Below, piece after piece: positions 23,212-25,601 of a stretch of 35,386 nt of DNA. Numbering within the stretch: position 1 is the stretch's first letter; the number at the start of each line of letters is the position of its first letter. Position numbers and translations under genes: made by a program. Under the pieces are notes generated by a model, which had not been told where the DNA came from, did not search any database, and saw nothing but the letters and a program-made list of their open reading frames with translations. Source of the DNA: Planctomycetaceae bacterium (GTDB taxonomy: Bacteria > Planctomycetota > Planctomycetia > Pirellulales > UBA1268); assembly GCA_947453375.1 (NCBI GenBank), contig CANGGT010000018.1, forward strand, positions 1-35,386, read 5' to 3'.

Positions 23212-24382
23212 AACCCAGCCTGGCCCCCTTCGCTCCGCGTGCCTTGCGCGGCCGGCCACGCGCAGCCTGCTCCCCTGGGCATGCCTCGGCGACGAGTTTC
23301 GTCATCGTGTTCGGCGAGACGCCTAGGAGCAAGGCTGCGCGGCCGCGATGCCCTTCCGCGGCTGCGAGCGCCTGACGGACCGCGAGGCGCCGCAACTCGT
23401 CGAGCTGCAACATCGGGAGGAGCGATTCAGCCCCTGCTCCCGCAGACCTCTCGGAAGCCGAGCGGGCGTGGACGGCGGACGGGATGTCGCAGGAGGCGGC
23501 CGATGACGCTTCCGCGGGGACCGCAGACGCGGCGGGGGAAGGAGGCGCTGCGGCGAACGTCTCGTCGAGGATCGCCTCGACCTGATCGGCGAAGATCGCC
23601 ACTCGCTGGATCGTCTGCGCCAGTTGCCTGACATTCCCCGGCCAGGCGAAGTCGACAAACCGCGCCAGAGTCGCGGCATCGGGCTGCCACACCGGGAGGG
23701 CGTAGATGGCCGCGAAGTGCCGGGAGAAGTGCTCGACGAAGCGCGGGATGTCGTCGCGACGAGCGCGGAGTGGGGGAATGGTCAGGTGGATGACGTTGAG
23801 CCGGTAGAAGAGATCTTCGCGGAACCGGCCGGCGGCTACCTCGACAGCGAGATCCCGATTCGTGGCCGCGATCACCTGAACGTCGACGGGGATCGGACGG
23901 GTGGCGCCGACGGGCGTCACCTCGCGCTGCTGGAGAGCGCGAAGGAGCTTCGGCTGAAGGTCGAGCGGCATCTCCCCGATCTCGTCGAGAAACAAAATCC
24001 CCCGGTCTGCAGCACGGAAGGCGCCGGCGGTGCTCGCATCGGCCCCCGTAAACGAGCCCCGGGAATGACCGAAGAGCTGGCTCTCTGCGAGCGACGACAC
24101 GATCGCGCCGCAATTGACCGCCACAAACGGTCGGCCTGCCCGGGAACCGGAAGCATGGATCGCCCGGGCCACCTCCTCCTTTCCACAGCCGGTCTCCCCG
24201 GTCACGAGCACCGGGCAATCAAACGCCCCCACTCGGACGATCGCCTGCTCGAGGAGGCGCATCACTTCGGCCTCCCCGATCACCCGCGACCAGGGCTGGG
24301 ACGATCCGGGCGACGCCACGTCGCCGGCGTCGCCGAGCGGGACCGGCAGGAGAGGCGGGGCGATCTGGGAAAAATGGCTCAA
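23210..24382 (-). CDS. sigma-54 enhancer-binding protein without sensor domain
   Basis: AAA+ ATPase that remodels sigma-54 RNA polymerase at a -24/-12 promoter. Walker A GETGCGKE (62-69), the sigma-54 contact loop GSFTGA (109-114, normally GAFTGA), Walker B GILFLDEIG (128-136), arginine-finger region RFREDLFYRLN (186-195), then a linker of about 55 residues rich in Ala/Ser and a Fis-type HTH (about 330-370, GHRGRAALLLGVSPNTMTK). The last 20 residues, ARGRPRKARGAKGARLG, contain an AT-hook core RGRP. There is no receiver, GAF or PAS domain: only about 30 residues precede the AAA+ part, as in PspF. The start is ambiguous: TTG 24382 with GAGGA 5 bases upstream is chosen over GTG 24469, which lacks a ribosome site. 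Divergent from the PEP-CTERM gene and upstream of the SDR. Confidence 0.93.
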   Translation of the reverse strand: MSHFSQIAPPLLPVPLGDAGDVASPGSSQPWSRVIGEAEVMRLLEQAIVRVGAFDCPVLVTGETGCGKEEVARAIHASGSRAGRPFVAVNCGAIVSSLAESQLFGHSRGSFTGADASTAGAFRAADRGILFLDEIGEMPLDLQPKLLRALQQREVTPVGATRPIPVDVQVIAATNRDLAVEVAAGRFREDLFYRLNVIHLTIPPLRARRDDIPRFVEHFSRHFAAIYALPVWQPDAATLARFVDFAWPGNVRQLAQTIQRVAIFADQVEAILDETFAAAPPSPAASAVPAEASSAASCDIPSAVHARSASERSAGAGAESLLPMLQLDELRRLAVRQALAAAEGHRGRAALLLGVSPNTMTKLVAEACPGEQAARGRPRKARGAKGARLG

Positions 24383-24473
24383 GGAGATCCTCGTCGGGGA
24401 AAGGGCGCGAGCAGCGCGGGAGCGACGGCCACACCGAGCCTCACACTTCCGGGGAACGGAATATCGCACTTTT

Positions 24474-24497
24474 TGCGAAATGAATCACCAATTCGCA
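24474..24497. promoter_or_regulatory. dyad, candidate upstream activator site
   Basis: TGCGAA (24474-24479) and TTCGCA (24492-24497) are perfect arms with a 12-base spacer. A further TCGCA at 24464-24468 pairs with the same TGCGA. The centre lies about 160 bases upstream of the -24 box, within the usual range for an enhancer. Confidence 0.4.
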
Positions 24498-24615
24498 CAG
24501 ACCTCGCCTGTTGTGGGGGGGGAGGACAGAGGGTTGAAAATCTGGAGCGGCACGAAAAAGATGCCGTCATAATCGCGCAAATCCTGCCACAAAATCGATT
24601 TTCTCCGCAAAAAAG

Positions 24616-24646
24616 CAGCGACTTGGAAAACCTTACAGCGACTTGG
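24616..24646. repeat. 11-bp direct repeat CAGCGACTTGG
   Basis: Two identical copies, 24616-24626 and 24636-24646, 20 bases apart, so on the same face of the helix. The second one runs into the -24 box (TGGCAC starts at 24644). The surrounding 24560-24635 is unusually AT-rich for this genome, with A-tracts and ATCGATTTT. Confidence 0.85.
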
Positions 24647-24659
24647 CACGGCGATTGCA
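24644..24659 (+). promoter_or_regulatory. sigma-54 (-24/-12) promoter of the PEP-CTERM gene
   Basis: TGGCACG (24644-24650), four bases, TTGCA (24655-24659). GG and GC are separated by exactly 10 bases, and every base of the TGGCACG-N4-TTGCW consensus is matched. Predicted start of transcription is about 24670, so the leader is about 104 bases, with a small GCGTGC/GCACGC hairpin (24720-24734). It points at the PEP-CTERM gene. The remainder of the 391-base gap (24383-24773) holds no gene. Confidence 0.85.
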
Positions 24660-24773
24660 TTTCAATCCCTTCGAGGAAGCGACCTCCGCCCTCCTCGCCA
24701 AACCATATTCCGAGTCAGAGCGTGCCCAGCACGCCGGCCGATTCAGCGAACGCGTTCAACTGGGAAGTCTTCC

Positions 24774-25601
24774 ATGAGCAATCCGTTGTTTGGTGGTCTT
24801 GTCGCTCGCCGTTTCTTCTCGGCGATCGTCGCTGGGCTCGCTCTGGCCGTCTCCACGGCAACCGCGACGGCAACCCCCATCATCACCGGACTCCATCTGA
24901 CCGGGACGGAATACTCGGTCGGCACTGGTGGCCAGGACAGCTTCTGGGAGGTCTACGCCTTCCCCAGCGCCTACACGAGCATCCCCGGGCCGATCACCCC
25001 GGGCTATCAGGCCTGGGTTTTCTCGGGCGGGGCTCCGATCGATAACGTTCCCGCGCCTTGGTATCCGGGACGCGGGAACGGCGGCTCGGACAACGTCGGT
25101 GCCAACGGCGCGCGGTGGATTGGTTTGCAGCAGGACAATGCCAACGCCCTCTTCCCCGGCAATTACCCGTCGCCGCAGTCGGACTACACCGTGATCTACC
25201 GGACGGCTTTCCAGTCCGATTCGACCGGAGTCGCCTACTTCAAGTTGCTCACCGCCGCCGACAACGCCATTTCGTTCTTCGTCGGCGGTTCAGTCGACAA
25301 CACCGAAATCTACATGCCCACGATGACCGGGGCCCAGATCGGCTTTGAGAAGCAGGGCTTGGGATTTCTCGGCTGGGTCAGTGGCGACGTTCCGGTTGTC
25401 GCCGGCACGAACTATCTCTACGCCGTTGTCCGCGACCGCTTCCAGGCAGACACGAACAACCCGAGCATCGGCAACTACGGCCAGACCGGGTTTCTTGTCG
25501 CCGCGGCCGTCCCGGAGCCCTCGTCGATCGTCCTCGCCGGCCTTGGAGCGGGCGTCATGGCGGTCGGAGCAATCCGTCGCCGCCTGAAGCGGTTGGCTTG
25601 A
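24774..25601 (+). CDS. PEP-CTERM sorting-domain protein
   Basis: Exported protein of 275 residues destined for exosortase-dependent sorting. Signal peptide residues 1 to about 33 (ARRFFSAIVAGLALAVSTATA), mature part rich in Gly/Asn/Tyr/Pro, C-terminal signal with VPEP at 246-249, a hydrophobic segment and the Arg cluster RRRLK. GGAAG lies 6 bases before the ATG. The mature region has repeated aromatic Gly-rich strands and YxVIYRTAF blocks, suggesting a beta-rich extracellular domain, no enzyme motif. It is lower in GC than its neighbours by eye. It is convergent with the next gene with only 11 bases between stops, and an exosortase (EpsH/XrtA type) is not in the window. Function unknown; PEP-CTERM proteins are often matrix proteins. 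Confidence 0.95.
   Translation: MSNPLFGGLVARRFFSAIVAGLALAVSTATATATPIITGLHLTGTEYSVGTGGQDSFWEVYAFPSAYTSIPGPITPGYQAWVFSGGAPIDNVPAPWYPGRGNGGSDNVGANGARWIGLQQDNANALFPGNYPSPQSDYTVIYRTAFQSDSTGVAYFKLLTAADNAISFFVGGSVDNTEIYMPTMTGAQIGFEKQGLGFLGWVSGDVPVVAGTNYLYAVVRDRFQADTNNPSIGNYGQTGFLVAAAVPEPSSIVLAGLGAGVMAVGAIRRRLKRLA

Follow-up and report, generated by a model that had tools for sequence, protein, structure and literature searches.

The DNA analyzed here is a 35,386-nucleotide stretch (the window) from the genome of a freshwater planctomycete bacterium of the Planctomycetaceae. Two divergently transcribed genes face each other across a region that contains the promoter; one encodes a sigma-54 enhancer-binding protein (EBP) and the other an exported protein with a PEP-CTERM tail. 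The features are as follows.

23210 to about 24382, minus strand: receiver-less EBP having an N-terminal arm of about 34 residues, an AAA+ sigma-54 interaction domain (GSFTGA loop), a lid, a Fis-type helix-turn-helix (HTH) and a basic RGRPRK tail (from profiles and sequence).
24439 to 24519, no strand: larger conserved region surrounding the dyad and including a further half-site, TTCGCA, on its downstream side (five-species alignment).
24464 to 24478, no strand: dyad TCGCA-N5-TGCGA resembling an upstream activator site, the proposed EBP binding site or enhancer (conservation and co-occurrence).
24644 to 24659, plus strand: -24/-12 sigma-54 promoter TGGCACG-N4-TTGCA, here TGGCACGGCGATTGCA (exact consensus and conservation).
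24671 to 24773, plus strand: conserved stretch predicted as the 5' leader, with potential short hairpins (GCGTGC-CCA-GCACGC; alignment with little covariation).
24774 to 25601, plus strand: PEP-CTERM exported protein of 275 residues with a signal-peptide-like N-terminus and the tail encoded at 25506-25583 (profile matches).

The product of the 24774-25601 gene matches the Pfam PEP-CTERM motif with 24.6 bits (cut-off 20.7) and TIGR02595 with 17.2 bits (cut-off 16), and its hydrophobic N-terminus was judged from the sequence rather than by a signal-peptide program. AlphaFold2, given seven close sequences, modeled the protein with a pLDDT of 41. An exosortase is encoded in the same genome (Exosortase_EpsH, 196 bits, contig C49). 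Conservation is higher in the leader than in the DNA that separates the dyad from the promoter. As there is little covariation, and the covariation term (+0.26) gives structure no support, the hairpins are at most suggested. The gene is arranged differently in the assemblies of two relatives. In G003:C128 (L066/L087:3-1745) it is duplicated in tandem, and the copies probably form one operon because the second copy keeps the leader but lacks a promoter of its own. In G001:C264 (L089:1384-2770) the orthologue has a VPEID-type tail and a remnant of a PEP-CTERM copy lies downstream, which could be either tail exchange or an assembly error.

A motif search of the window gave an exact plus-strand match to TGGCACG-N4-TTGCA at 24644-24659, 115 bp before the PEP-CTERM gene, which has the GG-N10-GC spacing and agrees with the YTGGCACG-N4-TTGCW consensus. 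Using a -24/-12 matrix made by hand from the known consensus, this site scored 19.8 when both strands were scanned, whereas the next-best site, elsewhere in the window, scored 12.2. The full-consensus promoter described in the earlier note is therefore the best in the window by a wide margin, and transcription is expected to start at about 24670. By itself, however, the sequence is suggestive rather than proof. By our own estimate from base composition an exact match is expected about once per 4.5 Mb genome, and the number of one-mismatch matches in the genome equaled that of a reversed control with no excess; the case for the promoter hence rests on conservation. Moreover, allowing up to three mismatches gave 16 matches in the window versus 24.6 expected, hence no enrichment. 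These counts are as they would be if the promoter were a chance match in a G+C-rich genome. Conservation contradicts such a match. Alignment of upstream regions showed the promoter kept at the same position before the PEP-CTERM orthologue in G006, G004, G001, and G008, and it is also kept in G003, whose locus falls on two contigs. All five same-genus orthologues for which upstream DNA is available thus retain it, in the form TTTGGCACG-N4-TTGC before genes for proteins 72-84% identical, although the N4 spacer differs, as does most of the sequence separating dyad from promoter. In G009 the 44-51% identical homologue follows a weaker form, AGGCACAGCCATTGCA. Also against chance, exact consensus sites with correct spacing outnumber those with one extra base 181 to 51 in 60 family genomes (3.5-fold; totals summed from tables). 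We regard a chance match as extremely improbable, and the assignment of a real sigma-54 promoter to the PEP-CTERM gene, as the earlier note had it, is confirmed at the level of sequence comparison, where conservation settles the question. The genome has one copy of rpoN.

The same motif was read elsewhere in the genome and family, the compared genomes being mostly draft MAGs and the sites having been picked by exact consensus. The other exact site of this genome (G000:C323:2435-2450; L016, L078) lies before dnaK, judged by orthologues. In most genomes of the genus and many of the family, a consensus site lies roughly 100-170 bp ahead of dnaK (orthologues among L157-L176); similar sites precede groEL and hsp20 and, in this genome, groES (G000:C11:29704). 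Sites also lie shortly before DUF1559/pilin-like genes in several genera (L215, L231, L237, L247, L299) and before genes for ammonium transporters, P-II, and glutamine synthetase (L161, L167, L172, L175; L213, L277, L280), the latter a useful positive control for the motif. Among 101 sites read in other genera, about 19 precede dnaK, 14 an ammonium transporter gene, 9 groEL, 5 a pilin-like DUF1559 gene, 3 glnB, 3 hsp20, and 1 glnA, and about 14 precede PEP-CTERM genes, counts that are not independent because several classes repeat the same orthologous promoter. As sigma-54 chaperone promoters have already been reported for Planctomycetia (PMC12316311), these data suggest that the motif was read correctly here.

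The divergent gene encodes a protein with the AAA+ domain carrying a GAFTGA-type loop (here GSFTGA) and the HTH of bacterial EBPs. Profile searches detected Sigma54_activat (219 bits), the lid, and HTH_8 (25.7 bits) and gave no receiver, GAF, PAS, or FHA match, in keeping with the sensor-less activator that had been described from the letters alone. The longest open reading frame starts at 24469 and would overlap the dyad. A TTG near 24382, about 34 residues ahead of the AAA+ domain, is the likely start because it has a ribosome-binding site and matches the orthologues. The best sites facing the EBP gene scored 1-11 and were not conserved; with no sigma-54 site directed at that gene, autoactivation by sigma-54 was rejected. 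We also rejected a functional link between the EBP and the SDR and CoA-transferase genes behind it, since in G006 an aldose epimerase gene comes immediately after the EBP.

In a tree of 35 EBPs the window protein falls within a clade of 24 members (support 100/99), 17 of which are transcribed away from a PEP-CTERM or VPEID-like gene that has a -24/-12-like site. All 17 loci having such a neighbor and all 14 having the exact dyad lie inside the clade; the remaining 11 EBPs have neither feature, except L314, where a PEP-CTERM gene lies nearby in another orientation. A family search found relatives 54-66% identical to the window EBP in genera g4 and g10, and at ten of these loci (nine in g4, one in g10) the EBP is divergent from a PEP-CTERM gene, its tail recognized by pattern rather than by a curated model, and a -24/-12-like site lies 290-360 bp away from the EBP. 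Outside this genus, some promoters match weakly, with scores of 10-13. The PEP-CTERM proteins at these ten loci look unrelated to that of the window and by eye form at least four further groups; behind the clade EBPs there are at least five cargo families in three genera. A paralogous EBP in this genome (contig C72, 54% identical) and the corresponding EBP of G008 (C133) each lie opposite a gene whose product has a VPEID-like tail (a sub-threshold 24.7 bits, cut-off 33), and the promoter before that gene, CCGGCACGCCGCTTGCT, has the same 17 bases at both loci. In G000:C72 the region that separates the paralogous EBP from the VPEID-like gene holds two tandem sigma-54-like sites (L080:6530 and 6996), which enclose a possible degenerate exported open reading frame. 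Five g4 clade members (L300, L302, L306-L308) have no PEP neighbor and no sigma-54 site, and they face a different gene pair, the second member of which was named by eye as a glutathione peroxidase; two of the five keep the dyad. The association of clade, dyad, and PEP-CTERM gene is, on these comparisons, strong but not universal, and the EBP clade appears to have retained its PEP-CTERM neighbor while the cargo protein was swapped.

The dyad, absent from the earlier note, is the strongest part of the case. It lies 180 bp upstream of the -24 element, and about 180 bp is a typical enhancer distance. At the loci of other genera it lies at -165 to -202 from the promoter in the intergenic regions inspected, an enhancer-like distance that holds in several cargo families. 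The exact dyad is present in 11 of 19 intergenic regions (shuffled mean 0.01), and its inward spacing is always 5, other spacings being absent from those 19 regions. Counted by locus, 14 of the 24 clade members have it, whereas it is found at none of 25 loci of other EBPs, nor in the 400 bp scanned upstream of each of the 101 other sigma-54 promoters (Fisher p 3e-6 and 2e-12, in tests that ignore relatedness). In 723 kb of mostly other loci the sole copy is that of the window. At C72 and G008:C133 the half-sites are the other way round, TGCGA-N5-TCGCA.

A divergent regulator sharing a dyad with its neighbor is a common repressor layout, so that a sigma-70-type promoter might drive the PEP-CTERM gene, with the dyad a repressor operator and the -24/-12 match secondary. 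However, the regulator has a complete sigma-54 AAA+ domain with its GSFTGA loop and the -24/-12 element was kept where the intervening DNA up to the dyad mostly changed, and we consider this arrangement very unlikely. A different possibility is that a genuine sigma-54 promoter depends mainly on some other EBP, with the divergent one acting elsewhere or, through the dyad, solely on its own gene. The genome holds ten well-scoring EBPs, and most same-genus genomes encode a related EBP that has no receiver. The promoter is kept in G008 and G009 without an adjoining EBP, in two clade members the dyad persists though no PEP neighbor is present, and PEP-CTERM genes that have a sigma-54 site and no adjoining EBP lack the dyad. 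Against this stand the dyad's enhancer distance in several cargo families, its occurrence only beside clade EBPs, and its degeneration in G008 and G009 (two cases, both in incomplete genomes), where the EBP is missing. The degenerate dyad fits a reading in which the EBP binds this site, and we judge service mainly by another EBP to be unlikely. As the two clade members that keep the dyad without a PEP neighbor also lack a sigma-54 site, control of the EBP gene may be an additional, or even the actual, role of the dyad. The earlier note had proposed a self-contained switch in a planctomycete. The promoter's conservation in close relatives, whose absence that note had named as grounds for refutation, bears the note out. 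The planctomycete setting is supported, and the link between EBP and promoter is now stronger than that note could claim, owing to the dyad and its co-occurrence with the EBP clade; self-containment fared less well, given the G008 and G009 promoters that have no adjoining EBP and the lack of an EBP-directed sigma-54 site.

Previous work has shown that the PEP-CTERM genes of Proteobacteria carry both a sigma-54 site and an activator motif, that PrsK, PrsR, and PrsT share a phylogenetic profile, and that among PEP-CTERM species the sigma-54 and activator motifs were found only in Proteobacteria (Haft 2006; PMC1569441). RpoN dependence was shown for Aquincola pepA, a PEP-CTERM gene (PMC9850573). 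The window resembles the PrsK/PrsR system in having a sigma-54 promoter and an upstream activator motif before a single PEP-CTERM gene (PMC1569441, PMC9850573), a promoter-to-start distance within the range reported for the targets of that system, and an AAA+ activator with a Fis-type HTH. In contrast, PrsR has a receiver and a partner kinase, PrsK, that is usually co-encoded, whereas the window EBP has no receiver and its genome no PrsK. PrsR is one regulator of many genes, and the window EBP is divergent from its putative target. The PrsR-type enhancer motif ends in TTTACA about 63 nt upstream, whereas here TCGCA-N5-TGCGA lies about 180 bp upstream. The EBP scored 249.9 bits against the PrsR model TIGR02915 (cut-off 502.6), all from the shared AAA+ part, and the best match to PrsK (TIGR02916, cut-off 300 bits) in its genome, which is about 92% complete, was 96.7 bits. 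PrsK exceeded the cut-off in one of 40 family genomes, G013, which encodes a PrsK-like kinase of 368 bits (G013:C89:3178-5157; L320). As the EBP falls short of the PrsR model and PrsK is below cut-off in the genome, the best reading of these scores is that the window EBP would work like PrsR while standing outside the PrsR family. A general PEP-CTERM sigma-54 regulon was rejected for this genome, in which 15 PEP-CTERM genes (about 0.5% of genes) exceed the cut-off and only the window gene has a strong sigma-54 site, although some upstream regions run off contigs. The VPEID-like gene beside the paralogous EBP also has a sigma-54 site.

Like the window EBP, PspF is divergent from its target operon. 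PspF and HrpR/HrpS are EBPs without a regulatory domain that are controlled in trans (PMC7057263), and the window EBP, being likewise AAA+ and HTH alone, should also receive its control in trans. It differs from them in that its apparent target is PEP-CTERM cargo and that no PspA- or HrpV-like partner was found adjoining it, and it scored 225.8 bits against the PspF model (cut-off 443.6). For planctomycetes, predicted sigma-54 promoters have been described ahead of chaperone genes, pilin-like genes, and others (Studholme and Dixon 2004, as cited in PMC2754498; PMC12316311). The chaperone and pilin-like classes recur among the present sites, whereas PMC12316311 does not mention PEP-CTERM. In the open-access literature we found no paper joining planctomycetes, rpoN, and PEP-CTERM.

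We put at about 80% the probability that the locus is a sigma-54/EBP/enhancer module for one exported, C-terminally tagged surface protein, with the EBP acting through the dyad. Sigma-54 RNA polymerase would wait at 24644-24659. The divergent EBP, a presumed hexameric AAA+ activator having no N-terminal sensor domain, would use its Fis-type HTH to bind the dyad at 24464-24478, some 180 bp upstream, then loop to the promoter and open it by ATP hydrolysis. Synthesis of the PEP-CTERM protein would thus require an EBP that is both present and unrestrained. Because the EBP lacks a sensor in cis, its activity would be set by its amount or by a partner in trans, as in PspF/PspA and HrpRS/HrpV. More tentatively, the clade could be a dedicated family of planctomycete PEP-CTERM activators in which cargo is swapped while activator, enhancer, and promoter stay constant and a partner in trans reports the state of the envelope or of export, the signal differing from that of PrsK; we think this possible but rather doubtful.

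PEP-CTERM proteins are widespread in planctomycetes, and their control outside Proteobacteria is unexplained. As the same EBP clade and enhancer site recur beside different surface proteins in three or more genera, the arrangement looks, from genome comparison, like a reusable expression switch of a kind not described before for PEP-CTERM proteins outside Proteobacteria. Naming the regulator clade, candidate enhancer, and promoters together gives a direct handle on that control: one EBP, one dyad, and one promoter. If true, exchange of cargo while the switch stays constant would also be an interesting way for surface proteins to evolve.
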